The notes under the pieces: model-generated | What the model was told of the DNA's origin: nothing | The model's input: only the letters and a program-made list of their open reading frames with translations | The model's database searches: none | Made by a program: the position numbers and the translations under genes | Part shown: one piece after another, positions 1,131 through 32,358 of the stretch | Layout: each line of letters starts with the position of its first letter | Numbering within the stretch: position 1 is the stretch's first letter | Source of the DNA: an uncultured Bacteroidales bacterium | GTDB lineage: Bacteria; Bacteroidota; Bacteroidia; Bacteroidales; UBA932 | DNA length: 64,000 nt | Assembly: GCA_900318015.1 (NCBI GenBank) | Contig: ONJB01000001.1 | Location: forward strand, 1-64,000 | Reading direction: 5' to 3'

Positions 1131-1258
1131 CCTTTTAGCTAAAAGTTTTGACGTGACAAATCCTCACGGATTCTCACAAGTTCGCCCTACGGGTGTCTGG
1201 TCAAAACCTTTTGGCTTTAAGGCTCTCAGAAAGAAGGCCCCCTATGGGCCGTTCTTTC
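1131..1258 (+). promoter_or_regulatory. Structured leader element, copy A
   Basis: The outer stem joins 1137-1152 to 1200-1216 (core AAAAGTTTTGAC with GTCAAAACCTTTT, one bulge). Inside are a hairpin AATCC-TCAC-GGATT (1159-1172) and a second CGCCC-TAC-GGGTG (1183-1195), followed by TCTG. A separate hairpin follows: GAAAGAAGGCCC (1229-1240) with GGGCC and TTCTTTC (1246-1258). The ssb-like ATG is 64 nt on. The 1020-1322 gap holds no gene; apart from this element it is AT-rich with a weak -7-like TAACTTTT near 1300. Confidence 0.6.
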
Positions 1259-1322
1259 AAGAAATAGAGAATAATTCATTATTCATAATCACTTATCTAT
1301 TAACTTTTAATCCTTACTCATC

Positions 1323-1739
1323 ATGGCTAAAGCTAAGAATTACTCCAATTTCGTGGAAGTCGTCGGCAACGTCGCCGTCATCTACCAGAACCCCTCCGAG
1401 AAGAACTTCGGCGAGATGCGGTTCCGTCTCATCAACCATCGCTCCTTCGAAAAGAAAGACGGCACCAAGGGCACCGAGGACACCCCGGTCCCAGTCCTCG
1501 TCAAGAAAGGCCGCCGCTTCGCGAAGCAGGAGGCCATCAAGGTCGGCGCGTTCCTGCGCATCAAGGGTCACCTGGAGGACAACTCCTACAAGGACGAGGC
1601 CGGCGCCTGGCACGGCGGCCTGGAAGTCAACGCCGACAGCATCGAAGTGCTGAAGAAGCGCGAGGACGGCAAGGTCGAGAACGTCGAGACCGGCCAGGTC
1701 GAAGAGATCGAGAACACCGTCGATGTGAGCGAGCAGTAA
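1323..1739 (+). CDS. Single-stranded DNA-binding protein (OB fold), SSB-like 1
   Basis: A 138-residue protein likely to coat single-stranded DNA during replication or after conjugative entry. It reads as one OB-fold, residues about 8-110: an opening strand VEVVGNVAVI, a central basic stretch (VLVKKGRRFAKQEAIKVG), then LRIKGHLEDNSY and a closing LEVNADSIEVL strand. The acidic tail ends in VDVSEQ and lacks the DDDIPF-type tip through which cellular SSBs recruit partners. It heads a block behind leader copy A. The OB-fold call rests on pattern only and sequence divergence is high. Confidence 0.75.
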   Translation: MAKAKNYSNFVEVVGNVAVIYQNPSEKNFGEMRFRLINHRSFEKKDGTKGTEDTPVPVLVKKGRRFAKQEAIKVGAFLRIKGHLEDNSYKDEAGAWHGGLEVNADSIEVLKKREDGKVENVETGQVEEIENTVDVSEQ

Positions 1740-1833
1740 GGCTCCGTCCCAACACCAACCAGAACCACCGGGGGAGGGCAATCAAGCCCTCCCCCTTTCC
1801 GTTCAACCGAAACCCCAAAACACCATCACTGAC

Positions 1834-2262
1834 ATGAAGAGAATCACCCTCATCCTCCCGCTCGTCCTCCTGTCGCTGCTCGCGACCGCCAAGGACGCCG
1901 AGGTCCAGTACCTGGAGGGCCTGCCCCCGGGCACGGTCTTCACCCTTCCCGCCGACGCGGCCCAGGCCTTCGCCGGCGAAATCGCACTCCCCGTGGACAT
2001 GCCGATGGCGGAGACCGCCTCCGTCGTCTTCCTCCACGCTCCTCTCGCCGTCTCCGTCAAGGAAACCACGCACGTCACCGCCACCTTCAGCGAGAGCCTG
2101 GTCTTCCGATCGTGCGCAGCCGAAGAGAAGAATGCCACCGACAACCAGCTTCACCTCAACCGCCCTGCACAGACAGCCTACATGGAACGGCGAAGCGGTC
2201 CTACGCATGACTTCACGCAGTTTCCGGAGGACTACCGCAACTCGCGCTACAGGCGCGGCTGA
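1834..2262 (+). CDS. Hypothetical exported protein
   Basis: 142 residues beginning with a classic signal peptide: MKR, a hydrophobic core (ITLILPLVLLSLL), then an ATA-K cleavage site near residue 19. There is no lipobox, so a periplasmic or secreted protein is expected. The mature part is about 120 residues with no recognised domain and a polar, Arg-rich C-terminus. It sits between the SSB-like and RNase HI genes. Confidence 0.65.
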   Translation: MKRITLILPLVLLSLLATAKDAEVQYLEGLPPGTVFTLPADAAQAFAGEIALPVDMPMAETASVVFLHAPLAVSVKETTHVTATFSESLVFRSCAAEEKNATDNQLHLNRPAQTAYMERRSGPTHDFTQFPEDYRNSRYRRG

Positions 2263-2357
2263 ATGAGAACCTCGTGGGACGAGGGGCGTCCCCACCAATC
2301 AACCAGACAAAACGATAACGCGGGGCGGTCGCAAGGCCGCCCCAAACATTTTCAGCA

Positions 2358-3080
2358 ATGAGACACATCAACATCTACACGGACGGGGCCTGCAAGAACA
2401 ATCCCGGTCCCGGCGGCTACGGCTGGGTCATCGTCGAGAACGACAAGGTGGCCGAAGTGTCCAACGCCCCCGGCTTCAGGAAAACCACGAACAACCGGAT
2501 GGAGATCCGTGCCGTTTTCTTCGCTCTCTCGAGAATCCGCGAACTGGCCAAAGAAAGTAGAGATACCGACGTCAAGGTCACTGTCTACTCCGACTCCCAG
2601 CTCGTCGTAAACACGATCGAGAAAGGCTACGCCCGAAAGAAGAACAAGGACCTGTGGGACATGGTGGACAACGTCCTCCTCGCCCTAAAGGACATGAACG
2701 TATCCGTCTCCTTCAACTGGGTCAAGGGACACGCGGACAACCCGTATAACAACCTCGCGGATCAGCTCGCGGTCAAGGCTTCCCTCCGAGCGGACTCATG
2801 CGACACCGTTTACGAGGAGATCTGCCGCGAGGAAACGCGGCTCGCCCGTCCGGTCGCCGAGCACATCCCCGAACCCGAGATCGTGGACGTCCGTTTCTGC
2901 AACGTACGCGACAGGAAGAACCGCAGAATCGAGGTCCTCCTGACCAACGGGACGGTCGTCAACATCATTCCGACCTGCGCCGGCTTCGCCCAGACGGAAT
3001 GCACGGCGGACGAGTCCCGCATCACGGTCGACATCGCGTGGAAGTACGTCGGCTGGCTCAACGGCCGAGCCGACCTTTAG
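2358..3080 (+). CDS. rnhA: Ribonuclease HI with a C-terminal extension
   Basis: 240 residues. The first 150 are a canonical RNase HI, which cuts the RNA strand of RNA:DNA hybrids such as primers and R-loops. The carboxylates are all present: D9 (YTDGACKNNPGPGGYG), E49 (NNRMEI), D79 (YSDSQ) and D135 (NNLAD), with the flexible-loop histidine H125 in KGHADN. The usual family length is about 150, so roughly 80 extra residues (160-240) form an unrecognised, probably beta-rich domain (VEVLLTNGTVVNIIP-like strands). It is followed by a strong terminator-like hairpin. Confidence 0.93.
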   Translation: MRHINIYTDGACKNNPGPGGYGWVIVENDKVAEVSNAPGFRKTTNNRMEIRAVFFALSRIRELAKESRDTDVKVTVYSDSQLVVNTIEKGYARKKNKDLWDMVDNVLLALKDMNVSVSFNWVKGHADNPYNNLADQLAVKASLRADSCDTVYEEICREETRLARPVAEHIPEPEIVDVRFCNVRDRKNRRIEVLLTNGTVVNIIPTCAGFAQTECTADESRITVDIAWKYVGWLNGRADL

Positions 3081-3189
3081 ACGTCTCGGCGACCGCGGAC
3101 GCCTCCTTCGACTTGCTGCCGGTTCTCGGCGTGGTTTATCATCACAGGGGCCGCCGGACGCGGCCGACGCCCCTTTCAACGACAATCCA

Positions 3190-3221: not shown

Positions 3222-3342
3222 CATGTCCACGGCGGTCATCATCCCGCCCATGATCCGGCCCTCCTCCCCGCTTCCTCACCGGGCCGGACCCACCCTAACA
3301 GAAGAATACCAGAAACAAATCCAACCTTTCCCTCCGCTTTTT

Positions 3343-3463
3343 CCCCGCTCCTCGAAAAAACCTCGCAGAGGCGACGTTCCCTTACGGTCCGCCCTACGGG
3401 GGTTTTGTTCTGCGGCCGGGGAGAGGCGTCTCCCAGACCGGGAGGCGCATTGCTGCCTCCCGG
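3343..3463 (+). promoter_or_regulatory. Structured leader element, copy B
   Basis: The outer stem has two segments: CCCCG (3343-3347) with CGGGG (3417-3421), and CGCAGA (3364-3369) with TCTGCG (3409-3414). Inside are a CTCGAAA stretch and a CCGCCC-TAC-GGGGG hairpin (about 3389-3402), followed by TTCTG. The separate downstream hairpin is CCGGGAGGC (3438-3446) with GCCTCCCGG (3455-3463), nine perfect pairs. The ATG of the next gene is 34 nt further on. Confidence 0.55.
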
Positions 3464-3497
3464 AAAGAAGTAAAACCATATCAAAAACCATCCGAAA

Positions 3498-3665
3498 ATG
3501 GCCAAGAGAAAATATCACTACGAATGGGCCGCCTATACGGACAACCTCTGTTACGGCAGGGTCTTCCTCGCCAGGGGCAGGAACCGCGACATCGTGGCCT
3601 TCCAGGCTCACAACGCGAAGAAGGGATGTTTCGTCATCAACAGGGAACGCGTCTATGAAGACTGA
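3498..3665 (+). CDS. Small hypothetical protein (55 aa)
   Basis: Translates to a 55-residue, basic and aromatic-rich protein starting MAKRKYHYEWAAY and ending NRERVYED. The ATG follows an A-rich run, as at other starts here, and its end overlaps the next start by 11 nt, which supports translational coupling. No domain is recognised. Confidence 0.55.
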   Translation: MAKRKYHYEWAAYTDNLCYGRVFLARGRNRDIVAFQAHNAKKGCFVINRERVYED

Positions 3666-8477: not shown

Positions 8478-8598
8478 GGAAAGTCCGCCGGCACGCAAAG
8501 GCCGCCATGCGTCCTTGTAGTCCCGCCCCGAAAGGGCGGACTGCTTTGCCGTGCGTCTTTCCGTCCGGTCCTTCAGAAAGGGGCGACCGTCGCCCCTT
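8478..8598 (+). promoter_or_regulatory. Structured leader element, copy C
   Basis: The outer stem is GGAAAG (8478-8483) with CTTTCC (8557-8562), then GCACGCAAAG (8491-8500) with CTTTGCCGTGC (8544-8554). The inner hairpin AGTCCCGCCC-CGAAA-GGGCGGACT (8519-8542) is followed by TGCTTTG. The separate hairpin is AAGGGGCGA with TCGCCCCTT (8578-8598). The next gene starts 126 nt later, beyond the phased repeats. Confidence 0.6.
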
Positions 8599-8630
8599 CC
8601 TGAAAACAACAAGAATTGAAAATACGAATT

Positions 8631-8710
8631 ACAATGCACTGCATTACATTGCATAGCATTGCATAGCAACGCATGACGTTGCAATGCGTCGCATTACAGT
8701 GCATTGTCAT
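8631..8710 (+). repeat. Phased 10-bp repeats with internal dyad
   Basis: From 8641 to 8710 the sequence divides into seven consecutive 10-mers that all begin with GCA, such as GCATTACATT, GCATAGCATT and GCATAGCAAC. The period equals about one helical turn. The tract is also dyadic: AATGCACTG (8634-8642) mirrors CAGTGCATT (8696-8704), and GCAACG mirrors CGTTGC at the centre. It lies just before the ATG at 8725. It could be an operator array or a leader hairpin. Confidence 0.7.
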
Positions 8711-8724
8711 AGAAACTCAAGAGT

Positions 8725-12021: not shown

Positions 12022-13161
12022 ATGAAAATCACACTCAAGACCAAGCCTCTGCTCACCCTCGTGCAGGCGCTCATCAAGGTCATCCCCGCGCGTTCCGCGC
12101 AGCCCATCCTGGAGAATTTCCTCGTCTCCGCCACCTCCGGCGGCGTCTCCATCACCGCCTCCGACCTTGAGACGACCATGACCGCCATCCTTCCCAAGGG
12201 CGGCGACGAACCCGCCTCCGTCGAGGAGGAGGGGACCATCGCCATCCCCGCACGCTTCCTGCTGGACATCATCAAGCAGGTGGAGGACGACACGGTGACC
12301 CTCACGGCGAACGACCGCAGCGCCAGCATCGCCTGGAAGACCGGACGCAGCTCGATCCCCGTCTTCGACCCCGACGACTTCCCGGCCACGTCCGGGGAGA
12401 TCACGGACGCCAAGACGTTCGACATCCCGGAGCAGGAGCTCCTCGACGCGCTCAACGCGACGCTGTACGCCGTCGGCGAGGACGAGATCCGTCCGGTGAT
12501 GTGCGGCATCTTCTTCGACGCCACGCCCAACGGGCTGTGCCTCGTGTCCAGCGACTCGCACCGGCTCGCGATCCGCACCATCCCGTCTGTGACCGTGCCA
12601 GAGGCGGCGTCGTTCGTCCTCCACAAACGGAACGCCACGCTGCTCAAGGGACTCCTCGGCGGGGAAGGAGACGTGAAGGTGTCCTTCAACCAGGACGCCG
12701 CGACCTTCCTCGCCGACGGCATCACGCTGAGGGCCCGGACCGTCGTGGGCAAATACCCCCGCTGGCGCGACGTCATGCCGAAAGGCTACCAGAACGTCCT
12801 GACCGCTGACCCGAAGGCGCTCGCCTCCGTGGTCAAGCGGGTGAGCGTCTGCGCGAGCAAGGTGTCCAACCAAATCAAGGTCGTCCTCAACGCCGACGCG
12901 CTCGGCGGTTCGATGGAGATCTCCGCACAGGACCTCGGCTACAGCACCTCGGCCGTGGAGAAGACACCGGCGGACTACCAGGGCGTGAACCTCACCATTG
13001 GATTCAAGGCCCCGTTCATGCTGGAACTCCTCGGCTCGTTCAGCTGCGACAACGTCAAGATCTCGTTCCTCGACGGAAAGCGCGCCGTCCTCGTCGAACC
13101 CGAGCAGCTTCCCGAAGGCAGCTACACCAGCTGCGTTCTGATGCCAGTGGCGACATCATAA
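12022..13161 (+). CDS. dnaN: DNA polymerase III sliding clamp (beta subunit)
   Basis: 379 residues against the usual 365-380 for DnaN, so full length. The protein forms a ring on DNA that tethers polymerase and other partners. Family hallmarks are visible: N-terminal SAQPILENFLV; the domain 2 region MCGIFFDATPNGLCLVSSDSHRLA (about 158-181); FLADGITLRARTVVGKYPRWRDVMP; and the C-terminal end SCVLMPVATS, equivalent to the LLMPMR-type tail near the partner pocket. No polymerase is encoded in the window, so it may redirect the host polymerase or other clamp-binding proteins to the element. Confidence 0.93.
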   Translation: MKITLKTKPLLTLVQALIKVIPARSAQPILENFLVSATSGGVSITASDLETTMTAILPKGGDEPASVEEEGTIAIPARFLLDIIKQVEDDTVTLTANDRSASIAWKTGRSSIPVFDPDDFPATSGEITDAKTFDIPEQELLDALNATLYAVGEDEIRPVMCGIFFDATPNGLCLVSSDSHRLAIRTIPSVTVPEAASFVLHKRNATLLKGLLGGEGDVKVSFNQDAATFLADGITLRARTVVGKYPRWRDVMPKGYQNVLTADPKALASVVKRVSVCASKVSNQIKVVLNADALGGSMEISAQDLGYSTSAVEKTPADYQGVNLTIGFKAPFMLELLGSFSCDNVKISFLDGKRAVLVEPEQLPEGSYTSCVLMPVATS

Positions 13162-13194
13162 CGCATCTCCAACCCCTTTCTCCATGCAGATCGC

Positions 13195-13305
13195 GCCGAC
13201 ACGCATCGCCGAAGGCGAAGACCCCGCCCCGAAAGGGCGCGGTGCTTTGTCGGCACGGTCCGCTGTGTGGAAGGCAGAGGAGGTGGACACCGTCCCCCTC
13301 CACAG
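13195..13305 (+). promoter_or_regulatory. Structured leader element, copy D
   Basis: The outer stem is GCCGAC (13195-13200) with GTCGGC (13249-13254). Inside are CGCC-GAA-GGCG (13207-13217) and CCGCCCCGAAAGGGCGCGG (13224-13242), then TGCTTTG, the same closing heptamer as copies C and G. The downstream hairpin joins CTGTGTGGA (13263-13271) to TCCACAG (13299-13305). The ATG is 27 nt further on. Confidence 0.6.
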
Positions 13306-13332
13306 AAAGAAAATCCATAAACCACACCTGAC

Positions 13333-14477: not shown

Positions 14478-15122
14478 ATGGAAATCCTCATCATCAACAC
14501 CGACGCGCTCAGCGCCTGGAACGCCGACCACGGCACGGAGCTCGACCACGCGGACCTCACGGACGAGCAGTTCCGCGAAGCGTGCGAGAACTACGACGGC
14601 TGGATCCTCGACTCTCTCGAGGAGCTCGTCGCCGAGATGAACTCCGACGGCCAGTACGCCCCCACGCCCTCCTGCCACTACATCCGTGTGGTCAAGGAGA
14701 AGGACGACGGCGCGCAGATCCCCGCCTGGGTCGGCAAGGCCGACCTTGCGGCGTCCGGATTCGACACCACGGACGTCGACGACAACATGCTGGAGAGAAT
14801 CGCCGACCACATCTCGGACGACCTCCACGAACAGCTCTACACCGAGTCCCTCATCCAGGCCGCCGACCGCGAAGGCCTTCCCCGCAAGGCCGACGTGGAC
14901 GCCGCCCGCAAGAAATGGGACGAATGTTCCCGGGACGCCACCTGGGATGCCTATGACAAGGTGGACGACCATACCCGGGAGTGCAACATCACCCTGGAGG
15001 CGGACGGCTACCTCTTCGAAGGGTACGGCTTCATCGTCGGAGACTCCGACAAGGAGATCCGCACCCTGGAATGCACCCTCCCCGACGGGAAGACCGTAAC
15101 CCTCATCAACGAAACGAAATGA
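14478..15122 (+). CDS. Hypothetical acidic protein (214 aa)
   Basis: Begins MEILIINTDALSAWNADHG and is acidic and largely helical. The pattern DLTDEQFREACENYDGWILDSLEELV near residues 25-50 looks like a small regulatory helical unit, but I cannot name a family. Its TGA overlaps the next ATG (ATGA). Confidence 0.63.
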   Translation: MEILIINTDALSAWNADHGTELDHADLTDEQFREACENYDGWILDSLEELVAEMNSDGQYAPTPSCHYIRVVKEKDDGAQIPAWVGKADLAASGFDTTDVDDNMLERIADHISDDLHEQLYTESLIQAADREGLPRKADVDAARKKWDECSRDATWDAYDKVDDHTRECNITLEADGYLFEGYGFIVGDSDKEIRTLECTLPDGKTVTLINETK

Positions 15123-15433
15123 GAAAACTCCCCCTCAAGCCGGAGTTCGCCCCCAAGGGGCCGACCCCGCCGACCTACGACAGTGAGAAGGAACGTCTCA
15201 TCGGAGACATCCGAGACTACATCGGCAAGGACGGGAACATCCCCGTCACCGAACACGGCAACCGCCCTTCCCTCAACGCCTCCGCGTTCGACTACGACGG
15301 CATGGTGCTCCGCCACCAAATCGGCAGGGAGCACCGCAAGCGCATCGAGTACTCCGAAATGGAAGAGTCGATGCTGAAGGACGTCATCATCGAGATCTTC
15401 CGCTACGGCAACTTCTGCCGCCTCTACGCCTAA
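15119..15433 (+). CDS. Hypothetical protein (104 aa)
   Basis: Translationally coupled through ATGA to the previous gene. It is basic at the N-terminus (MRKLPLKPEF) and helical afterwards (MEESMLKDVIIEIFRYGNFC). No motif is recognised. Confidence 0.58.
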   Translation: MRKLPLKPEFAPKGPTPPTYDSEKERLIGDIRDYIGKDGNIPVTEHGNRPSLNASAFDYDGMVLRHQIGREHRKRIEYSEMEESMLKDVIIEIFRYGNFCRLYA

Positions 15434-15445
15434 CGAACACGAGCC

Positions 15446-16120
15446 ATGCCCAACTGGTGCGTACAGAACTGGATCCTGAAGGGTCCGAAGGATGACGTGC
15501 AGCGATTCTGCGACACCGTCAACACTTGCCTCACCCAGCCCGATGTCTTGCCGAACGACTTCGGCAAGTACTGGCTCGGCAACCTCTGCGTGGCCTTCGG
15601 CTACGAATACTCCGAATCGACCTACGGCCTCCGGGGGAACTTCGACCCCAACGGTGACCAGATCGCCACCCTCTGCTGTCCCGTCCCGGACGAGACGCCC
15701 GTCGCGCCGACACCCGTCGACGACGACACCGCCGAGATCCGCTTCTCCGTCACCCACGCCCACGGCCGCTCCGACTGGTTCGAGAAGATGGTCGACGAGA
15801 AATTCCCCGACCTCAAGGTCGCCTGGAAGGCGACGGACGAGTTCGGCAATTTCCACACCTGCCGCAACGGCGAGGCCTTCGGCCTCAAGCGCTTCGAGGC
15901 GGAGACCTGGGGCGACAACGGCGAGGACAGGGACTTCGACAACGCATTCGACGCGGCAGCCTACCTCAACGAGTTCACCTCGAAGACCGACGCCGACTTC
16001 GACAAGTTCACGCCCGAAGAGGTGGAGCTGCAGGACCAGTCCTTCTGGAACAAGCTCAACGACTGGAACGAGCGCCACGACGACGACTATATCGGGTTCT
16101 GCAAATGGGAGGCCGCCTGA
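15446..16120 (+). CDS. Api92/DUF1281-like protein
   Basis: 224 residues opening with MPNWCVQNWILKG, the diagnostic start of the Api92-like (DUF1281, YubB-type) family found on phages and conjugative plasmids, which has a ferredoxin-like fold and no settled function. The second half has the expected WGDNGEDRDF and a terminal cluster of aromatic residues (YIGFCKW). It fits the mobile-element setting. Confidence 0.7.
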   Translation: MPNWCVQNWILKGPKDDVQRFCDTVNTCLTQPDVLPNDFGKYWLGNLCVAFGYEYSESTYGLRGNFDPNGDQIATLCCPVPDETPVAPTPVDDDTAEIRFSVTHAHGRSDWFEKMVDEKFPDLKVAWKATDEFGNFHTCRNGEAFGLKRFEAETWGDNGEDRDFDNAFDAAAYLNEFTSKTDADFDKFTPEEVELQDQSFWNKLNDWNERHDDDYIGFCKWEAA

Positions 16121-16131
16121 CGGACGCCGTG

Positions 16132-16392
16132 ATGATGCACTACTACGCCTGCACCTTCTCGGTGTACCGCCTGGGCAACCGCAACAGCCGACCCCACACC
16201 GTGCTACGCTACGTCTCCGCCAAAAACGCTCAGGACGCCTACAGGCGGGCGCAAGAAATCTGCGCCACGCGCGCCCTCCGTGAAGCCTTCGCCTCCGACG
16301 AGGTGGTCTGCCGCCACAGGGACGTCCGTCCTCTCCTTGCGGACGAAGCAAGGAAGGACATCGCAAACAACCCCTCCCTCGTCATTCCGTAA
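16132..16392 (+). CDS. Hypothetical protein (86 aa)
   Basis: An ATG at 16105 would overlap the preceding gene; I prefer the ATG pair at 16132/16135, giving MMHYYACTFSVYRLG. A central helix (NAQDAYRRAQEICATRALREAF) dominates. The start is uncertain and the function unknown. Confidence 0.52.
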   Translation: MMHYYACTFSVYRLGNRNSRPHTVLRYVSAKNAQDAYRRAQEICATRALREAFASDEVVCRHRDVRPLLADEARKDIANNPSLVIP

Positions 16393-16438
16393 GGGGAGGG
16401 GATACTCCATCTACCATCAACAACCCTTTCCCCGCTCC

Positions 16439-16543
16439 CGCACGGAGCCTCGAAACGCGTTCCCCCGGCCAGGTCCCCTGACCGGGCGCTTATTCTGTGT
16501 TCCGTGCGATGGGGCCCTCGAAGCCGGGGGAACGGGTCCCCCG
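16439..16543 (+). promoter_or_regulatory. Structured leader element, copy E
   Basis: The outer stem is CGCACGGA (16439-16446) with TCCGTGCG (16501-16508), eight perfect pairs. It contains the sequence CGGAGCCTCGAAACG shared with copy H. The inner hairpin is CCCGG-C-CAGG-TCC-CCTG-A-CCGGG (16464-16486), followed by TTCTG. The separate hairpin CGGGGGA-ACGGG-TCCCCCG occupies 16525-16543; the ATG is 25 nt on. Confidence 0.65.
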
Positions 16544-16568
16544 ACTCGAACAAATAAAAGCATTCACA

Positions 16569-17432
16569 ATGATCACCTATTGCATCCAATGCTCCGGCTA
16601 CGACATCCTCTCCGAGACGCTCGAACACAACATGGGCGGCTTCGACGAGACCTACTGCAGCGCCTCGCGCGCTCGCGAGACCATAGAGAGCATGCTCCAG
16701 TACATGCCCAACTCGCTCGAATACGACATCCGATTCGCCAACAACACGGTGCTCGTGCTGTCCGTGCTCCAGCGCAATAACGAAGGATATTGGAATCCCT
16801 GCGACAAGAACGTCTACGTCGCCGCCTGCGACATGAAGTACGCCAAGGCCCTCAAGCCGTTCCTGAAAGGAAAGACCATCGTCCCCGTACAAAAGAAAGG
16901 CGAGGACCTGACCACTGAGACCGTCCTTCCCCTGTCCATCGAACTGGCGAAGGAAATCCAATGCGGAAAGAAGGAGGGCTACATCACGAAGAAACGCGGC
17001 ACCGAACGCTGGCAGCTCATGCAGGTCGCCGGGACGGAGGACTACATCCTCCGGAACACCGAAGGCTGCAACGAGTACATCCCGCTGAAGGACCTCAACG
17101 TCCCCGGCGTGTTCGTCATCCACCTCGTCACGCGGATCCCCGGCATCCCGGAAAACCTCGCCGGCAAGACCCCGTTCACCTACCAGGGCATCCGTTTCAT
17201 CCCTGCGGGACAGTTCAAGGACTTCGGCATCGACACGACGGAAAAAAAGTTCTGGAGGGCGTTCGCCGACCACACCGAGCTGGACCCGAACAGACCTGTC
17301 CTTCCCTGCTGGGACTACGACAGCTTCTACAGGGCCGTACCGAAGGAAGACAGGGACAACGACGTCTTCTGGGCCGTCGAGAAGGGCATCTACGTCTGTC
17401 CCGCGAACCAGCCGTTCAAGTTCAAGCCATGA
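16569..17432 (+). CDS. Hypothetical protein (287 aa)
   Basis: The ATG at 16569 follows leader copy E and an A-rich tract; an upstream in-frame ATG at 16497 falls inside the element. The N-terminal region (MITYCIQCSGYDILSETLEHNMGGFDETYC) has several Cys, and the middle is a strand-rich domain. No known family is recognised. Its TGA overlaps the next ATG. Confidence 0.65.
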   Translation: MITYCIQCSGYDILSETLEHNMGGFDETYCSASRARETIESMLQYMPNSLEYDIRFANNTVLVLSVLQRNNEGYWNPCDKNVYVAACDMKYAKALKPFLKGKTIVPVQKKGEDLTTETVLPLSIELAKEIQCGKKEGYITKKRGTERWQLMQVAGTEDYILRNTEGCNEYIPLKDLNVPGVFVIHLVTRIPGIPENLAGKTPFTYQGIRFIPAGQFKDFGIDTTEKKFWRAFADHTELDPNRPVLPCWDYDSFYRAVPKEDRDNDVFWAVEKGIYVCPANQPFKFKP

Positions 17433-17596
17433 GACAGATGTACCTTGCCTCCATCCTCCTGGAAAACGAAGAGACCACCGAGGAGACCTTCGAGGAGCCC
17501 TCGGTCACCAGCGAAGACGAGGCCCTGGCCCGCGCCTGGGAGCTCTTTCCTGATGCCGTGGACATCTTCGTCGAGACGATGGACTGCACCTGTTGA
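17429..17596 (+). CDS. Small acidic hypothetical protein (55 aa)
   Basis: Translationally coupled through ATGA. It is very acidic (ENEETTEETFEEPSVTSEDE) and ends VETMDCTC. The gap after it (17597-17851) contains a hairpin (17606-17622), a TAACTTTG promoter-like box and leader copy F. Confidence 0.55.
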   Translation: MRQMYLASILLENEETTEETFEEPSVTSEDEALARAWELFPDAVDIFVETMDCTC

Positions 17597-17668
17597 GGAA
17601 CGGACGGCCGCAGAAGCCGTTCAACGGGCGGAAACGAATAATTTCAAGGAACATAAAGAGAAATTCAG

Positions 17669-17676
17669 TAACTTTG
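17669..17676 (+). promoter_or_regulatory. Bacteroidota -7 box before leader F
   Basis: TAACTTTG fits the Bacteroidota -7 consensus TAnnTTTG. Only a degenerate TTTC lies near the -33 position. A start about 8-12 nt downstream would place leader copy F at the very 5' end of the transcript. Confidence 0.45.
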
Positions 17677-17693
17677 GTTCCGTCAGTCCCGTA

Positions 17694-17811
17694 GAAAACG
17701 CCTCCGCCATGCAAAACCCTCCGGGTTTCCGGCTCGCCCCAAACGGGCTCGTGCTCAGGCGGAGCGCGTTTTCGACCAGGATGTCAGGGAGGCGGGCCCG
17801 TACCCGCTCCC
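17694..17811 (+). promoter_or_regulatory. Structured leader element, copy F
   Basis: The outer stem is the longest of the set: GAAAACGCCTCCGCC (17694-17708) with GGCGGAGCGCGTTTTC (17758-17773), 15 pairs and one bulged C. Inside are AAACCC-TCC-GGGTTT (17714-17728) and GCCC-CAAAC-GGGC (17736-17748). The separate hairpin GGGAG-G-CGGG / CCCG-CTCCC spans 17787-17811; the ATG of the second SSB gene is 40 nt on. Confidence 0.68.
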
Positions 17812-17851
17812 AAGCACATCCAACAAGCAACGACCAACACCTGAAAAAGAG

Positions 17852-18232
17852 ATGCCAGCATTCAATTTCAACAAGGCCGTCATCGGCGGGAACGTCGGCG
17901 CCGAGCCGACGATCACCTACGACGACAAAGCCAACATCAAACGGTTCCGATTCAACGTCTGCGTCAACATGATCTACCGCGACCGCTACGGGGAAATCCG
18001 CAACGAGCCGAACTGGTTCACGGTCACCGGAAGCGGCCGGCTCGCCGAATTCGTGGAGCGCAACTGCCACAAGAGCTGTCCCGTCCTCGTCGAAGGCCGT
18101 CTCCGGAACATCAAGTTGAAAGGCGCGGACGGAACCGAGCATTTCGTAACCCAGATATGGGCGGAGAACATCCAATTTCCCGCCTCGTCCAAGAACCAAG
18201 ACATCGAAAACCATGAACTTCTACCAGAATGA
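17852..18232 (+). CDS. Single-stranded DNA-binding protein, SSB-like 2
   Basis: 126 residues, residues 1-110 an OB-fold of the SSB type: FNKAVIGGNVGAEPTITY, then FRFNVCVN, WFTVTGSGRLAEFV and PVLVEGRLRNIKLK, in the order of bacterial SSB strands. The tail is short (NQDIENHELLPE) and lacks the DDDIPF tip, so recruitment of host partners may be absent. It heads a block that includes a macro-like protein, and its end overlaps that next gene by 20 nt. Confidence 0.85.
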   Translation: MPAFNFNKAVIGGNVGAEPTITYDDKANIKRFRFNVCVNMIYRDRYGEIRNEPNWFTVTGSGRLAEFVERNCHKSCPVLVEGRLRNIKLKGADGTEHFVTQIWAENIQFPASSKNQDIENHELLPE

Positions 18233-18644
18233 CATCCACCCGGACCCCCAAACCGTCTTCGTGTTCGGGAGCAATCCGGAAGGCCGGCACGGCGCCGGCG
18301 CCGCCAAGGTCGCAAGGCTCCGCTTCGGGGCCATCTACGGACAGGGGGAAGGCCTCCAGGGCCGCTCCTACGCCATCCCGACCAAGGACCTCAGGGTGAC
18401 CGCCGACAGGGGCTTCCGCTCCATCCCGCCGGAGGCCATCACCCGTTCCATCCGACGGATGTACGACTGCGCGCGGCAACACCCGGACAAGCAGTTCAAG
18501 GTCGCCTACCGCAACACCTACGAACGGTCCCTCAACGGCTACACCGGCATCGAGATGATCCGGATGTTCCTCGACGCGGGACCCGTCCCCGAGAACGTCT
18601 GGTTCTCCGAGGAGTGGAGGCAGACCGGTATGTTCAACGGCTGA
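18213..18644 (+). CDS. Phage macro-like protein (A1S_2505-type)
   Basis: 143 residues beginning VFVFGSNPEGRHGAGAA followed by GAIYGQGEGLQGRSYAIPTKD, the signature of the A1S_2505-like phage non-structural family, which resembles macro domains that bind ADP-ribose-type ligands. The family is common in phages and large plasmids; its substrate is not settled. Overlap with the SSB gene by 20 nt indicates co-expression. A role in countering ADP-ribose-based defences is possible but is inference. Confidence 0.78.
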   Translation: MNFYQNDIHPDPQTVFVFGSNPEGRHGAGAAKVARLRFGAIYGQGEGLQGRSYAIPTKDLRVTADRGFRSIPPEAITRSIRRMYDCARQHPDKQFKVAYRNTYERSLNGYTGIEMIRMFLDAGPVPENVWFSEEWRQTGMFNG

Positions 18645-18663
18645 CATCCTGGAGGGAACAACG

Positions 18664-18921
18664 ATGATACGCATCTACAAGACCTCGGACACGACATTCG
18701 TCCTGTCTGAAAAGAAGTTCAAGGACTCCGTCCCCGCCATCGCGTCCTCGGATTCCGTAGACGAGGCCTTCGACCTCATCATGGACGAGCACTACATCCC
18801 CTCGAAAGGGGTGACCGTCCGGTTCGACAGAGACCTCGAAGACACGGTCTACGAGTCGAACATCCCCGACGTCGGCGAGAAATCCTTCATCGACGTGAAG
18901 AGATACCTGCATCAACAATAA
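18664..18921 (+). CDS. Hypothetical protein (85 aa)
   Basis: Mixed alpha/beta, opening MIRIYKTSDTTFVLSEKKF. It contains repeated short acidic segments and a C-terminal helix (SFIDVKRYLHQQ). Closely spaced with neighbours; function unknown. Confidence 0.58.
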   Translation: MIRIYKTSDTTFVLSEKKFKDSVPAIASSDSVDEAFDLIMDEHYIPSKGVTVRFDRDLEDTVYESNIPDVGEKSFIDVKRYLHQQ

Positions 18922-18933
18922 ACCACAAATCAA

Positions 18934-19446
18934 ATGGAAAACAAGGAAATACTCATCAACGGTCTCATCCAAAGCGCTTGCAAGCTCACCGAAGACTGCA
19001 AAACCGCGGAAGACATCCGCCAGCGGCTGAGGGGCCTGCTCGTCTCTGAATACAAGTGCGACCCCGACATCAAACCGGAACAGGCCGTAAGACTCGCCGA
19101 CGCCCTCAGCGACGTGATCATCCGAAAGAGAGGCCGGCATGCCGACGAGACCCCGACGATGAAGATCTACATCGCCCGCGATGCCGCGACCTTCGAAGAC
19201 GAGGACCAGGAAAAATTCGTCGGAAGACATCCTGAAAAAGAGACAGAATTCGGCAGGCTCCGCCTCTTCTACGAAAAACCGGAGATCAACAACCGGACGG
19301 GTGTATGGGAAGGCGCCCGGACCGCCTGTGAAATCAAGACATACATGTTCCCTGAAATCCACTGCAAAGAGTGCATGGAGTTCACCGGCCCGGCCAACAT
19401 TCCGGAACACCTCCATTATCCCGGCGCCCTGCACAAAATCCAATAA
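18934..19446 (+). CDS. Hypothetical protein (170 aa)
   Basis: The N-terminal half is helical with an opening like small DNA-associated plasmid proteins (MENKEILINGLIQSACKL). The C-terminal half has cysteines (HCKECMEF) that may bind metal. No family is recognised. Confidence 0.6.
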   Translation: MENKEILINGLIQSACKLTEDCKTAEDIRQRLRGLLVSEYKCDPDIKPEQAVRLADALSDVIIRKRGRHADETPTMKIYIARDAATFEDEDQEKFVGRHPEKETEFGRLRLFYEKPEINNRTGVWEGARTACEIKTYMFPEIHCKECMEFTGPANIPEHLHYPGALHKIQ

Positions 19447-19478
19447 ACTGCTCCACCGAAACAAATACTGACGAAACC

Positions 19479-19901
19479 ATGTACAACCAGAAACTCCAGA
19501 ACCTCATCCCACGCCTCGAGGCGTGGCTTGACAAAACGCTGCCCGAACCCGCCCAGCAGGCAGCCTTCCGGAAGACGGACGCCCAGAACTACATCGACGG
19601 CAAGAACAAGTTCTACATGGCCGTCCTCGAGACGAACGTCGTCTACGCTTACCTGCGCACGCCCGATGCCAAGGGACTCACCCCGGAGCAGATCCAGAAC
19701 TTCAGCCAGTGGGACTTCATCGACCGTGAACTCCCGAAGACCGACAGGGTGAAGGAAATGCTCGCGGAAGTGGTCCAGCTCGAGGAACTCGGCATCCCCG
19801 GCGGAGACAACGAACGAATGAACCGCTGTTACTACAAGCTGGGCGAAGACCTCCTCGTCGCCGCCATCGAAGCATACCTCAACAAGATTGAAAAGCGATG
19901 A
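19479..19901 (+). CDS. Hypothetical helical protein (140 aa)
   Basis: The ATG at 19479 follows an A-rich stretch. The protein is mostly helical and polar (MYNQKLQNLIPRLEAWLDKTL). Its end overlaps the next start as ATGA. Function unknown. Confidence 0.6.
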   Translation: MYNQKLQNLIPRLEAWLDKTLPEPAQQAAFRKTDAQNYIDGKNKFYMAVLETNVVYAYLRTPDAKGLTPEQIQNFSQWDFIDRELPKTDRVKEMLAEVVQLEELGIPGGDNERMNRCYYKLGEDLLVAAIEAYLNKIEKR

Positions 19902-20176
19902 AAGAGCTGCTCGCCAGCCTTCAGGCCCTGCAGGCGCAGGCACTCGACAACGACGTCTACTCGTTCGAGATAGACGTACACAGGCGGTATGACAAGGGCT
20001 CCCGCAGAATCGAGACGTACATCACCGCCACCGTCTTCCTGAAGGAACCGAAACCCGACAAGAAAGGCCAAGCCGGCAACTTCCTCTATGCTTCCTTCAA
20101 CGAGATGCAGAAGAAAGAGACCCGGGAAGGAATCCTCGAACATATCCGCAACCACATCTGCCCTGAAAAAGACTGA
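19898..20176 (+). CDS. Hypothetical protein (92 aa)
   Basis: Coupled to the previous gene. A short N-terminal helix is followed by strands (DVYSFEIDVHRRYDKGSRRIE, ETYITATVFLKE), and a C-terminal helix. No recognised motif. Confidence 0.57.
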   Translation: MKELLASLQALQAQALDNDVYSFEIDVHRRYDKGSRRIETYITATVFLKEPKPDKKGQAGNFLYASFNEMQKKETREGILEHIRNHICPEKD

Positions 20177-21525: not shown

Positions 21526-21556
21526 CATCAACCCATCCCCAACCATCCCGCCCGCT

Positions 21557-21683
21557 GGGAAACCCTCCCGGCACACAATGCCTCCGGCATCAAGCTCGCC
21601 CCCCCCCCGCAAGGAGGGGGCTCATGCTTTGCCGGCAGGATTTCCCCGTCTCCATCAAGAAGAGGGCGCAACGCACCCTCTTC
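21557..21683 (+). promoter_or_regulatory. Structured leader element, copy G
   Basis: The outer stem 21557-21573 with 21630-21646 has 6+3+6 pairs separated by two single mismatches (GGGAAA/TTTCCC, CCT/AGG, CCGGCA/TGCCGG). Inside are ATGCC-TCC-GGCAT (21578-21590) and a C-run/G-run hairpin (about 21598-21622), then TGCTTTG. The separate hairpin GAAGAGGG...CCCTCTTC occupies 21659-21683; the ATG is 33 nt downstream. Confidence 0.7.
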
Positions 21684-24931: not shown

Positions 24932-26509
24932 ATGAACCTCTTCGATCCAGAATTCTATCCTACCCCTCCGGAGGTCATAGAGAAGATGCTCCTTCCCTAC
25001 GCGGACCGCCTCCACAAGATGACCGTCCTGGAACCCTCGGCAGGCAACGGGGCCATCCTCGACCACCTCTGCAAAAGAGGAGTCCGCGTCCAGTACACGA
25101 CCAAGCGGGGAGAGACTTACTCCGACGAGGCGAAGGCGAAGCCCGAACGGCTGTACTGCCTCGAGAAGAACCCCGAACTGCGGCTCATCCTCCAGCAGAA
25201 GGGCTACCGCGTCCTGGGGGACGACTTCCTCGCATTCCAACCCGAACACCGCTTCGACCTCGTCGCGATGAACCCGCCCTTCTCGGACGGCGACAGGCAC
25301 CTCCTCCACGCCTGGGATATCCTCGACGGGGGCGACATCGTCTGCCTGCTGAACGCGGAGACCGTCAGAAACCCCTTCTCGGCCTCCCGCAAGCGGCTCG
25401 CCGCCCTCATCGCGGAGCACGGCACCGCCAAACCGATCGGACAGGCCTTCCTCCACGCAGACAACCCCACGGACGTGGAGGTCGTCATCGTCCGCCTCCA
25501 CAAGGAGCCGAAGGAGGACCCGTTCCGTATCGACGCAGACGGCCTGTCCTCAGAGAAGGCCCCGGACTTCGCCGAGATGGCCGCCTCGGGCGACCTCCCG
25601 ACCCAGGGCTCGCGCCTCGACGCCTACATCCGCTGCTGGGACCTGACGAAGGCCTCCGCCGTGGAGCTCATCAAGGCGTTCTCCCGCTTCCTGTTCTACG
25701 CGAAGGCGTTCATCAACGCCAACCAGGATACGGGCAACAGCCGCGCCGACAACGTGGCAGAAGCCCTACTCAAGGACCTCGGCGACATGCGCTACGGGTC
25801 CGAGGGAATGGCCGACGTCTACAACCGCTTCATCGACCGCGCCAAATCCAACGCCTGGGGCAGGATCTTCGACGAGATCGGCCTCGGCAAGTACATGACC
25901 TCCGGCCTCCAGCGGAAGCTCGACGAGTTCCGCACGGCCCAGGGAGCGGCCTCCATCACCAAGGAGAACATCTTCGCCCTCTTCCGGTTCATCATGGCCA
26001 ACATCTCCACGATCATGGACCAGAGCGTCGTCGAGGTCTACGACATGTTCACCCGCTATTTCGACGGAAACACCTCCCACGAGGAGGGCTGGAAGACCAA
26101 CAAGCGGTTCAAGTGCAACCGCAAGGTCATCCTGCCCAACGTCGCCGACGCGGGCTTCAAGCCGGAGGTCTACGGCTATAGAGAATACTTCACCACGCGA
26201 TACGTCAGCAGTTTGACGGACATCGACAAGGCGATGTGCTGGCTCGCCGGAAGGGACTACGACGCCATGGACAGCCGCTACTACGACATCTGCTCGCACA
26301 ACCGCTCCTGCGACCCCGAGAAGGCGACCATCGAGACGGCCATCCAGTGCATCCCCGTCGGAGACCAAGACTGGCACGAGTCGGCCTTCTTCCGCGTCAA
26401 GGCGTTTAAGAAAGGCACCATCCATCTCGAGTTCAAGGACGAGGCCCTCTGGACGAAGTTCAACCTCACGGTCAACCAGGGCAAGAACCAGATCGGAACG
26501 GGGGAATGA
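24932..26509 (+). CDS. DNA adenine methyltransferase with DUF4942-like C-terminal part
   Basis: 525 residues. The N-terminal 180 form a class I SAM methyltransferase: the start FYPTPPEVIEKML is typical of plasmid and phage N6-adenine enzymes, motif I is LEPSAGNGAILDHL (about 33-46) and motif IV is LVAMNPPFSDGDRH (about 109-122). Residues about 230-520 resemble the DUF4942 region found fused to such methylases in Bacteroidota elements. No restriction enzyme is nearby. Expected role: methylating the element's own DNA against host restriction, or control of expression. Confidence 0.85.
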   Translation: MNLFDPEFYPTPPEVIEKMLLPYADRLHKMTVLEPSAGNGAILDHLCKRGVRVQYTTKRGETYSDEAKAKPERLYCLEKNPELRLILQQKGYRVLGDDFLAFQPEHRFDLVAMNPPFSDGDRHLLHAWDILDGGDIVCLLNAETVRNPFSASRKRLAALIAEHGTAKPIGQAFLHADNPTDVEVVIVRLHKEPKEDPFRIDADGLSSEKAPDFAEMAASGDLPTQGSRLDAYIRCWDLTKASAVELIKAFSRFLFYAKAFINANQDTGNSRADNVAEALLKDLGDMRYGSEGMADVYNRFIDRAKSNAWGRIFDEIGLGKYMTSGLQRKLDEFRTAQGAASITKENIFALFRFIMANISTIMDQSVVEVYDMFTRYFDGNTSHEEGWKTNKRFKCNRKVILPNVADAGFKPEVYGYREYFTTRYVSSLTDIDKAMCWLAGRDYDAMDSRYYDICSHNRSCDPEKATIETAIQCIPVGDQDWHESAFFRVKAFKKGTIHLEFKDEALWTKFNLTVNQGKNQIGTGE

Positions 26510-26541
26510 CCAGCACCCATCACCAACCATACCATCCCGCT

Positions 26542-26670
26542 GTCCGGAGCCTCGAAACGAACCGCTCCGCGGCGGCGGCCCAAGGCCCGCCCGACCCCTC
26601 ATCCACGAGGGGCCGGGTTCTTTTTCTGCGTCCCGGACTATCCTTCCGGCAGAAAGGCCGCTGGCCTTTC
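26542..26670 (+). promoter_or_regulatory. Structured leader element, copy H
   Basis: The outer stem is GTCCGG (26542-26547) with CCGGAC (26633-26638), containing the CGGAGCCTCGAAACG sequence shared with copy E. The inner hairpin is CCCG-A-CCCCT with AGGGG-C-CGGG (26590-26617), followed by TTCTTTTTCTG. The separate hairpin GAAAGGCC-GCT-GGCCTTTC (26652-26670) is perfect; the radC-like ATG is 27 nt on. Confidence 0.65.
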
Positions 26671-26697: not shown

Positions 26698-27156
26698 ATG
26701 GCCATCTACGAATACACCCTCAAAGGACGCAAGCTCAACGACTCGGCCAGTCCCGAGCTCGACAGGCCCGAAGACGTCGCCGACTACCTGCTCGCCAACT
26801 GCTACGACCCCGACGAGATGTGGCGGGAGAAGGCGTTCGCCGTCTACCTCAACAGCGAGAACAAGATCCTCGGCCACTTCCTCATCTCCGCAGGCGGCAC
26901 CAACTCGACGGACTTCGACGTGAAGCTCGTCGCCAAGCCCGCCCTGGAGCTCATGGCCTCTGCGGTCATCATCTCGCACAACCACCCCTCGGGCAATCCG
27001 CTGCCCGGCAAAGCCGACTTCGACTCAACGCAGAAAGTGAAGAAAGCCCTCGCCCTGTTCGACGTCAAGATGCTGGACCACATCATCATCGGAGACGGCA
27101 AAGCGTACTCCTTCGACATGGAAAAAACCTTCACCCTAGAAACAACCCAGCCATGA
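26698..27156 (+). CDS. radC: RadC-like JAB-domain protein
   Basis: 152 residues. The JAB/MPN metal motif is present: the catalytic Glu region, then ISHNHPSGNPLPGKAD near residues 93-108 (H-x-H-P-S-G-N...D). RadC-like proteins of this length are common on mobile elements and genomic islands; their substrate is not established, and a role in DNA repair or anti-restriction has been proposed. Its end overlaps the next start as ATGA. Confidence 0.88.
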   Translation: MAIYEYTLKGRKLNDSASPELDRPEDVADYLLANCYDPDEMWREKAFAVYLNSENKILGHFLISAGGTNSTDFDVKLVAKPALELMASAVIISHNHPSGNPLPGKADFDSTQKVKKALALFDVKMLDHIIIGDGKAYSFDMEKTFTLETTQP

Positions 27157-30615: not shown

Positions 30616-30637
30616 CCCGACCGCACAAGAACGCTCC

Positions 30638-30672: not shown

Positions 30673-30706
30673 ACCCCGAAAGGATCATCCGAACAAGGAA
30701 ACCATC

Positions 30707-31063
30707 ATGTACAAGGAAATCCATCCCCTCTACCGCGACAACACCAAGGAAATGAGCTCGATCAGAAACGGAGACGAGCGCCCCGTCGCGGACTTCTACA
30801 TCGAAAAGCCGCCCATCCTGCTGGACATCCACATCATACGCATGATGCGCGAGGAATGCGTCCCCGACGGGTCGGCGAAACTCTACAGGATATCCGTCTC
30901 CAAGGACAGCTACGACGACATCGTCATCCGGGAGGAGGAAGCCCTCCAGATCAGGTCCATCCTCCTGAAGCACGGCTCCGGAAACCCCCTGGTGAACGCG
31001 ATCGAGGCCCTGACGTCCGCCATCCGCGACCTGTGGAACCTGCTCAGGGCCCGCATGCGCTAA
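30707..31063 (+). CDS. Hypothetical protein (118 aa)
   Basis: Mixed N-terminus (MYKEIHPLYRDNTKEM), then a long C-terminal helix (NPLVNAIEALTSAIRDLWNLL). The first gene after the terminator; the upstream A-rich spacer contains no clear promoter. Function unknown. Confidence 0.57.
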   Translation: MYKEIHPLYRDNTKEMSSIRNGDERPVADFYIEKPPILLDIHIIRMMREECVPDGSAKLYRISVSKDSYDDIVIREEEALQIRSILLKHGSGNPLVNAIEALTSAIRDLWNLLRARMR

Positions 31064-31076
31064 GACCACGACCGGC

Positions 31077-31325
31077 ATGACTTTCACCCCGACACTCTTC
31101 CCTCCGACCCTCGACACGAAGGTCGCTGAGACGGACATGAAGACGGGCTTCGACACCCGGCCGCTTCTCAACCACCTCGGCAACGACGCCACCTGGCGGG
31201 ACGTCCTCATAAAAGAACGCCACGAGATCGAGGCGCTTCCGGGCTACGGCCCGAAGACCGCCGACACCATCTACCGGTTCATCAACGAGAACATACCCCA
31301 CACCTTCATGGACCTTATGGACTAA
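31077..31325 (+). CDS. Helix-hairpin-helix protein (82 aa)
   Basis: The segment IEALPGYGPKTADTIYRFI (about residues 51-69) matches the helix-hairpin-helix DNA-binding motif (hydrophobic-P-G-x-G-x-K-T-A-x-x-I). HhH motifs bind the DNA backbone without sequence specificity and are frequent in repair and replication proteins. The rest is short and unrecognised, so it may be an accessory subunit. Confidence 0.62.
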   Translation: MTFTPTLFPPTLDTKVAETDMKTGFDTRPLLNHLGNDATWRDVLIKERHEIEALPGYGPKTADTIYRFINENIPHTFMDLMD

Positions 31326-31344
31326 CCCCAAACAACCTACAACC

Positions 31345-31872
31345 ATGGTACCCATCATCACCGACCGCAAGACCGCCGCCGAGAGTGGCATGCTCACCGA
31401 CGGCCGCTACTTCATCCACGCCCAGAGCGGCACCCCGCTCTACCTCCCCATCTGGTACGGCCACCGGCTGGACCTGAAGAACATGCTCGTCACCGAGAGC
31501 CAGGACGAGATCCCGCTCCGCCCGGAATTCCCGGACGTCAACCAGCTCGTCAAGGAAGGCTACCTCCTCGAAGCGACAATCTACCGCTACCACGACATCG
31601 ACCCCGATGCGTTCCGGGACCGCGACCACTGCCCCCCGCTCACCGGCAAGTGGATCCGCAAGTTCATTCAGGAGTTCAAGGAACACGGTTTCAACGTGAC
31701 ACGGGAGGCGATCATCCATAACTTCTCCTGCTGGATGGGCGACCTGAAGAGCGGCTACCGCGACGAGAAGAACGGCTACCACCTCTTCACCCCGTGCGGC
31801 TGCAACCCGCTGAGCTTCCGCGTCTCCTCCCTCGAGCCCGAGCTCGACTGGCAGATCACCTACGAGTACTGA
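31345..31872 (+). CDS. Hypothetical protein (175 aa)
   Basis: A mix of strand and helix with His and Cys distributed through it (IHAQSG; DRDHCPPL; HNFSCWMGD; FTPCGCNPLSF). No recognised domain. It ends before an AT-richer spacer holding a possible promoter. Confidence 0.6.
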   Translation: MVPIITDRKTAAESGMLTDGRYFIHAQSGTPLYLPIWYGHRLDLKNMLVTESQDEIPLRPEFPDVNQLVKEGYLLEATIYRYHDIDPDAFRDRDHCPPLTGKWIRKFIQEFKEHGFNVTREAIIHNFSCWMGDLKSGYRDEKNGYHLFTPCGCNPLSFRVSSLEPELDWQITYEY

Positions 31873-31917
31873 AGAAGGAAATCAAGGGAAAAGCGTAGAT
31901 AATCAAGAAAATTTCAC

Positions 31918-31925
31918 GACATTTG
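31918..31925 (+). promoter_or_regulatory. Possible Bacteroidota -7 box
   Basis: GACATTTG differs from TAnnTTTG at one position and is 11 nt from the next ATG in a locally AT-rich spacer (31873-31936). No -33 box is evident, so the call is tentative. Confidence 0.35.
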
Positions 31926-31936
31926 CGCAACCACAG

Positions 31937-32257
31937 ATGAAACAGAAATACCACTTCTTCAAGGCCACGCAGATGCCCGGCGGAAAGTCGCTCCTCTCCC
32001 TTCCCGGGCAGAAACTCGGCGGATACGACATCACCCCCGGCATCCTGGTGAAGGACATGCGAGGCTCCACGGCCGTCTCCTCCGCCAGGAGGAAAGCCGT
32101 CCCCGGCGAAGTCTTCTTCACCACGACGCTCCGGCGCAACGGCCTCTCGCTCGTGGCGAGGGACATGGTCAGCCTCGACAAGAACAGGGACGTCCTCCTG
32201 TCCGACGCCCGCGACGCCTACGACCAACTGGCATCATCAACCATCCCTCCCGCATAG
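31937..32257 (+). CDS. Hypothetical basic protein (106 aa)
   Basis: Basic, Lys/Arg and Gly-rich N-terminal half (MKQKYHFFKATQMPGGKSLL), with a strand-rich middle (GEVFFTTTLRRNGLSLVARDMV). Its stop codon lies at the base of leader copy J. Confidence 0.57.
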   Translation: MKQKYHFFKATQMPGGKSLLSLPGQKLGGYDITPGILVKDMRGSTAVSSARRKAVPGEVFFTTTLRRNGLSLVARDMVSLDKNRDVLLSDARDAYDQLASSTIPPA

Positions 32258-32358
32258 ACGGGCTTCCGGAACGGACAAATCGGAGATTTGCGCTCCGCTC
32301 TCCGTTGCGGAACCCCGTCTTGCACGTCCGGCACAAGGCCGCCACTGGCGGCGGCCTT
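32257..32358 (+). promoter_or_regulatory. Structured leader element, copy J
   Basis: The outer stem 32257-32274 with 32302-32319 has 6+5+5 pairs with two single mismatches (GACGGG/CCCGTC, TTCCG/CGGAA, AACGG/CCGTT), the same layout as copy G with unrelated sequence. Inside is CAAATC-GGA-GATTTG (32276-32290); the second inner hairpin is absent. The separate hairpin AAGGCCGCC/GGCGGCCTT spans 32335-32358, and the ATG is 10 nt away. Confidence 0.68.

Follow-up and report, generated by a model that had tools for sequence, protein, structure and literature searches.

Contig C60 of an uncultured Bacteroidales bacterium is 170,271 bases long, and its bases 1-64000, the whole stretch analysed here and called the window below, carry nine structured intergenic elements. 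A 99-base identical overlap between its two ends (at 1 and at 170172-170271) makes it very likely that C60 is circular, a plasmid of ~170,172 bp. Six further elements of the same kind lie beyond the window on the same contig. We propose that the fifteen copies are likely to be Frpo-like single-strand promoters in the leading region of a Bacteroidota conjugative plasmid. The proposal is carried by their structure, the strand on which they fold better, their siting and orientation, the genes that they precede, and a promoter box that lies backwards in comparable leaders of other Bacteroidota.

Each copy consists of domain 1, in which a long stem encloses inner hairpins, and of a second hairpin; the boundaries of both were set by us, and domain 1 is assigned throughout to the minus (bottom) strand, which is the one proposed to fold as single-stranded DNA (ssDNA). 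Copy 1 (domain 1 at 1131-1222, second hairpin at 1223-1266) precedes an SSB-like gene, below the Pfam cut-off, with its ATG at 1323. Copy 2 (3340-3421 and 3422-3464; ATG 3498) and copy 8 (26538-26638 and 26639-26668; start of a RadC-like gene at 26698) are of a CTCGAAA/TTCTGCG type, and copy 5 (16434-16508 and 16509-16552; ATG 16569) is of a CTCGAAA/TTCTGTG type. The TGCTTTG type is represented by copy 3 (8478-8562 and 8563-8604; ATG 8725), copy 4 (13190-13254 and 13255-13308; ATG 13333) and copy 7 (21553-21646 and 21647-21681; ATG 21717). Copy 6 (17690-17773 and 17774-17818) stands before an SSB gene starting at 17852, and copy 9 (32256-32320, overlapping the stop codon of the gene before, and 32321-32358) before a DHH-domain gene starting at 32369. 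Between the second hairpin of copy 3 and its gene, at ~8629-8711, TGCAATGCATTGC-like units make up an additional long palindrome, whose Rfam matches were sub-threshold microRNAs only. In a scan of the whole contig, we folded the 230 nt upstream of each of 55 gene starts that have an upstream gap of at least 100 nt; the six further copies (~126520, 141260, 143390, 147860, 161370 and 162200), all on the plus strand and in the same arc of the plasmid, were chosen by eye from 17 plus-strand upstream regions with such a gap between 117 and 168 kb. Domain 1 measures 65-110 nt.

The nine window sites fold beyond dinucleotide shuffles both as top-strand RNA (z -7.39, -2.30, -6.77, -3.57, -3.04, -4.87, -4.41, -3.28 and -5.92 for copies 1-9) and as bottom-strand DNA (z -2.23 to -6.87). 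When 230-nt upstream windows were folded with G-U pairs barred, three copies were weak (those before the starts at 3498, z -0.65; 16569, z -1.12; and 26698, z -1.77). A first-pass annotation of the window had described the nine regions as a family under selection for structure, and had suggested a comparison with shuffled sequence; the range obtained for top-strand RNA, z -2.3 to -7.4, supports both the reality of the regions and the selection, and their plus-strand bias, their confinement to one region and their siting at the head of gene blocks are borne out as well. The common plan that it drew (outer stem, one or two inner hairpins, gap, second hairpin, A-rich stretch, ATG) was recovered, except that the outer stem of copy 8 appears in the bottom-strand DNA fold and is missing from the top-strand RNA fold. 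The short distance from the last hairpin to the ATG is 10-56 nt in eight copies and ~120 nt in copy 3, where the palindrome intervenes. Single mismatches said to occupy matching places in copies 7 and 9 (then placed at 21557 and 32257) are present, in places that do not strictly match (stem segments 6/3/6 vs 7/5/6).

The further statement that the family has no conserved primary sequence was too strong. Indeed, (T)CCCGC stands at the stem base in 9 of the 15 copies, against 4-8% in the background, variants of a CTCGAAA..GCTTATTCTGCG core occur in six copies and TGCTTTG in four, and blastn detects similarity between some pairs; MAFFT alignments of the window copies were too poor for a covariance model. 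Patterns for a motif designated type B gave 0 and 0 matches in viral contigs and 0 in genome contigs. Among 398 genomes of the family, this motif matched the plasmid itself four times forward and never in reverse, and ten other genomes once each, which is the control level, since a backwards control pattern also gave single matches in 11 genomes. Protein searches found relaxase relatives in two other genomes of the family (3 of 199, counting its own), which led to the genomes G080 and G118, whereas relatives of DUF4942 (2 of 150 genomes, own included) and of RadC (21 of 150) were of no help. In another genome (G425, same order), two neighbouring strong hairpins at L096 1876-1995 and 2221-2340 have GGTATCACCAGTGCCGCAC in common.

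The surroundings of the copies suggest a conjugative plasmid. A plus-strand mob block at 39090-45658, on the presumed lagging side, consists of a gene in the mobA position (no Pfam match), the relaxase gene (41975-43492, PF03432, E 5.6e-21) and, beside it, that of the coupling protein (43526-45658); a topoisomerase gene also lies on the plus strand. Upstream of the mob genes, an AT-rich intergenic region at 37879-39089 with inverted repeats at 38861-38970 is the presumed oriT; it contains short repeats ACATATCTAC and inverted repeats AAGTGTCNNACACTT, as well as a minus-strand open reading frame at 38147-38536. Genes at ~84-98 kb on the minus strand resemble a Bacteroidetes-type tra operon, as judged by eye. 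Genes of the contig were called by codon usage in this analysis, not taken from annotation, and of the 127 genes called in the arc that runs from 117 kb through 170 kb and 0 to 37.9 kb, 121 lie on the plus strand, pointing toward the presumed oriT, compared with 23 of 62 in the rest of the plasmid. The cargo of this arc includes three SSB-like proteins (at 1323, below the Pfam cut-off, 17852 and 148348), RNase H, the DNA polymerase III beta clamp (DnaN; 12022-13161, plus strand, within the block flanked by copies 3 and 4), RadC, DUF4942 (24932-26509, plus strand, weakly matching an N6-methylase, within the block flanked by copies 7 and 8), a C5-methylase and ArdC. In the operon behind the copy at 162200 there is a VWA/CobT domain; the VWA protein had no relative in viral contigs and, among 295 genomes of the order, none outside its own genome.

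To see which strand forms the structure, we folded both strands with DNA energies and used 80 shuffles of each element to correct the gain of the bottom over the top strand for composition (dz). Over the 15 copies as a set, the bottom (template) strand folds better (Stouffer -3.77, p 8e-5), corrected dz being negative in 9 of 15; the raw energy is lower on the bottom strand in 13 of 15, a count that means little alone because 103 of 150 background windows show the same. In 23 analogues from other Bacteroidota elements, likewise taken together and described below, the bias was again found (Stouffer -4.03, p 3e-5; 21 of 23 individually negative). Non-leader control windows were unbiased (mean dz 0.00, n=150, and -0.03, n=158), and resampling of these windows reached the observed mean in 0 of 5000 draws for both sets. 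The signal is carried by domain 1 (p 9e-4) and not by the second hairpin (p 0.12). Moreover, the F-plasmid stretches with Frpo2 and Frpo1 gave dz -2.89 and -2.39. Mismatches within the stems (1x1) were also counted: on the top strand of the 15 copies they are A.C 11, C.T 7, C.C 5, G.G 4, G.T 2 and A.A 1, the ratio of C-containing to G-containing ones (23:6) being beyond composition (p 0.005), and in the 23 analogues A.C 16 and G.T 0 (p 7e-4), so that in the latter the bottom strand has G.T pairs. Since the folds are strand-asymmetric, the template strand as ssDNA is indicated, and the structures probably act as folded ssDNA rather than as RNA leaders.

A related plan occurs before leading-type genes in plasmids and conjugative transposons of other Bacteroidota, with sites before ardA and JAB/RadC genes in a Bacteroides ovatus record, in plasmids of Alistipes indistinctus and Tunicatimonas, and before the JAB and SSB genes of pMMCAT. 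The search with ArdA gave 32 loci, and the box counts below cover 33 ardA loci. The 23 analogues were hand-picked, 16 from these 33 loci and 7 from others; near-identical loci and L059, which has no clear leader, were dropped from the ardA set, and L055, L065, L066 and others were left unused. Many ardA leaders carry AAATCTYC..GTATTT inside the long stem, and in eleven of them, some closely alike, 11 of 17 stem pairs show compensatory change. The -7 box of Bacteroidota promoters, which we take to be TAnnTTTG, is present in reversed orientation within 330 nt before ardA at 21 of 33 loci and in forward orientation at 0 of 33; these 21 boxes fall into about five sequence groups and are therefore not independent events. 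At nine ardA loci, an exact TTTG lies 20-21 nt from the reversed box and completes a full reversed promoter. The reversed box forms part of the base of the long hairpin, in its 5' arm, with its complement where Frpo geometry needs it; in double-stranded DNA, it is directed away from ardA. Should the bottom strand fold, the complement of the 5' arm becomes the non-template strand and the gene-proximal arm the template, and the promoter is aimed at ardA; by analogy with Frpo, only a folded template strand would aim the box in this way. Among 683 -7 boxes in the collected loci, the complement lies on the side expected from Frpo geometry in 39 cases vs 12 on the other side (score at least 14), many of these cases being the ardA leaders themselves.

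Similar leaders occur close to the host. On contig C47 of G080, from the family of the host, the leader of a VWA/CobT-domain gene contains a reversed TTTG-N22-TACCTTTG, and a structured leader also precedes an SSB gene; in G118, from the same genus, a leader with a reversed TACCTTTGC stands before a parB gene. In one Hymenobacter plasmid, no such leader was seen in the 49 kb inspected. Six analogue loci gave nine Rfam matches (introns, tRNAs, rteR and a SAM riboswitch), none of them on leaders; one, a SAM-I/IV riboswitch above the gathering score, lies near the structured leaders of G080 (L032 12488-12586, that is, G080:C47 82488-82586). In the Tunicatimonas plasmid, a leader with the ardA-leader core motif precedes a DUF3560 gene (L030 46970-47250) and adjoins DUF4942 and PRTRC-system genes. 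In pMMCAT (L036), mob genes on the minus strand and structured leaders on the plus strand adjoin at 14927-20086, and three similar strong hairpins of a GGTTTACCCGTAATCATCCGC..GCGGCTGATTATGGGTAAACC type (27301, 30376 and 39466) might form a second leader family.

On the plasmid itself, promoter boxes are less readily recognised. A lone -7 box is found forward in 1 of 15 copies and reversed in 2 of 15, the reversed ones 85-102 nt before the stem, and no reversed canonical -7 box was found at the stem base of the copies. By eye, several copies show a TTTG-like element in their 5' arm, in some cases with a TA or GCGGG element 18-20 nt away. The boxes of both known Frpo also escape a simple sigma70 consensus scan that demands 10 of 12 matches (best 8 of 12), and lack of a consensus match is therefore weak evidence. 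Seven of the 15 copies begin no more than 33 nt past the preceding stop codon, which leaves an upstream promoter for an RNA leader little room.

From these observations a sequence of events can be proposed. The bottom strand would be the transferred strand (T-strand), entering the recipient 5' end first from oriT at ~38-39 kb toward lower coordinates. Each intergenic region, while single-stranded, could then fold so that domain 1 provides RNA polymerase with a double-stranded stem to bind, in which the complement of the top-strand 5' arm would serve as non-template and the gene-proximal arm as template. Transcription would leave the stem at its base and continue, with the single strand as template, into the genes of the block (SSB, RadC, methylase, clamp and others), the second hairpin ending up in the 5' untranslated region of the mRNA. 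Synthesis of the second strand would dissolve the hairpin and switch the promoter off. A newly arriving single-stranded plasmid might thus switch on its protective genes ahead of second-strand synthesis.

Several results weigh against this proposal. Between a point 120 nt ahead of the stem and the ATG, 0 of 15 copies contain a full canonical Bacteroidota promoter (the TTTG/TAnnTTTG pair), whichever way it is read, and for this reason the promoter function of the copies is something that we infer; the analogue motif AAATCTYC..GTATTT with complementary arms is likewise absent from the contig. Corrected bottom-strand gain is missing in 6 of 15 copies, copies 1 and 6 (at 1131 and 17694) fold better on the top strand, as do the analogues L057 and L058, and copy 6 alone has a -7 box in forward orientation (TAACTTTG), 25 nt ahead of its stem. 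A tRNA control of the strand test went in the sense direction, but weakly (12 sense, 5 antisense, 1 tie; n=18; Stouffer 0.53), and the A.C to G.T ratio in the plasmid copies, 11:2, does not exceed what composition predicts (p 0.16). Sequence relatives of the window copies were not detected in viral contigs, genome contigs or the 398 family genomes, and plus-strand blastn of the copies against Frpo (at E 0.01) or against the analogues gave no match. Finally, the direction of transfer is presumed from the location of the presumed oriT and from the rule that the relaxase side enters last, which is a convention (PMC11541004); the leader in G118 lies on the relaxase side of its presumed oriT, and the leaders and mob genes of pMMCAT face opposite ways, a misfit if the convention holds there.

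The most serious competitor, which we nevertheless regard as unlikely, is that the elements are structured plus-strand RNA leaders or intercistronic elements through which the gene blocks are each controlled in translation, processing or antitermination. The strong folding at gene heads with a second hairpin 10-120 nt before the ATG, the lack of strand preference in that hairpin, and the two copies with the better top-strand fold, one of them with the forward box, would all suit such a role. The first-pass annotation had regarded the elements as structured leaders, and a reading as RNA is not favoured by the strand asymmetry of the folds, the cramped upstream space and the wrong-way -7 box of the analogues: domain 1, over the copies as a set, favours the opposite strand as DNA, the analogues have A.C mismatches where G.U would be expected, and no copy of the 15 has a full forward promoter, with little room for one in seven. 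Moreover, no Rfam match reaches the gathering score in the window, and the three sub-threshold matches there avoid the leader hairpins of the nine copies.

It is considerably less probable that the copies are single-strand initiation sites, used by primase or a primosome for synthesis of the complementary DNA strand, and not promoters. The folding of the template strand as ssDNA within the arc presumed to be the leading one would fit this, and Frpo itself reportedly serves both transcription and priming, to go by the title of Masai and Arai 1997; yet fifteen copies each stand directly before a gene start, and the analogues have promoter boxes inside the stem. Ordinary features of double-stranded DNA (divergent or antisense promoters, protein-binding inverted repeats, terminators) are very improbable: the reversed promoters of the ardA leaders would fire leftward in double-stranded DNA, but the long imperfect arms show compensatory changes, none of the nine window copies has a T-run after the second hairpin, and in L012 no gene would be served leftward, because the gene annotated to its left has plus-strand orientation. 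Both the RNA leader and the terminator were thus weighed and then lowered, and Frpo-like single-strand promoters remain the best explanation.

A broader claim, for which we see roughly even chances, is that Bacteroidota conjugative elements across the phylum have their own class of single-strand promoter, in which a housekeeping promoter faces away from the gene as long as the DNA is double-stranded and is turned toward it only by folding of the transferred strand; in this plasmid, the 15 diverged copies would form a single-strand regulon over ~90 kb, with boxes unlike the host consensus that may depend on a different sigma factor or on an activator. If this is true, leading regions in a dominant gut phylum become readable, both for the genes that act first and for the strand that is transferred, and uncharacterised genes behind such leaders become candidate anti-defence or establishment genes, with the backwards promoter as a searchable signature. 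In experiments with the F plasmid, conjugation into a defended recipient rose ~225-fold with an anti-CRISPR gene placed behind Frpo in the leading region (PMC11541004).

The principle of a single-strand promoter is known from E. coli plasmids, and its Bacteroidota case is probably new. Single-strand promoters have been described in Proteobacteria, and the main text of PMC11541004 does not contain the word stem 'Bacteroid'. Among the papers listed by a literature search covering few subscription journals, none reported them in Bacteroidota, and no earlier report of the ardA and RadC/JAB leader class was located. With these ardA and RadC/JAB leaders, the plasmid copies share a long imperfect hairpin with an inner hairpin, leading-type genes and the template-strand bias, whereas many of the former carry AAATCTYC..GTATTT and a reversed TAnnTTTG, unlike the copies. 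The copies resemble the cis-regulatory RNAs of Rfam in being structured sequence before genes, and differ in having no match at the gathering score in the window; the earlier view that they fit no known RNA class therefore holds as regards Rfam, but a functional precedent exists in the Frpo/ssi elements of F and ColIb-P9, which are ssDNA promoters (PMC9849209, PMC11541004). As with Frpo/ssi, noncoding stem-loops precede ssb and other genes of the leading region, a position that rests here on the presumed oriT; as in the F plasmid, the leading genes lie before oriT and point at it; and as with Frpo1 and Frpo2, the template strand, over the copies as a set, folds better than shuffles predict. 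Unlike Frpo, the copies belong to another phylum, have a shorter domain 1 and a separate second hairpin, and their promoter boxes were not recognised; since they lack both sequence similarity and recognisable boxes, we do not class them as members of Frpo. Frpo1 and Frpo2 are 92% identical (PMC9849209, PMC11541004), the stretches compared here agreeing at 86.7% over 377 nt, and near-identical Frpo copies carry a risk of recombination (PMC9849209). Compared with this near-identical pair in F, the fifteen mostly diverged copies of the present plasmid would be one answer to that risk.

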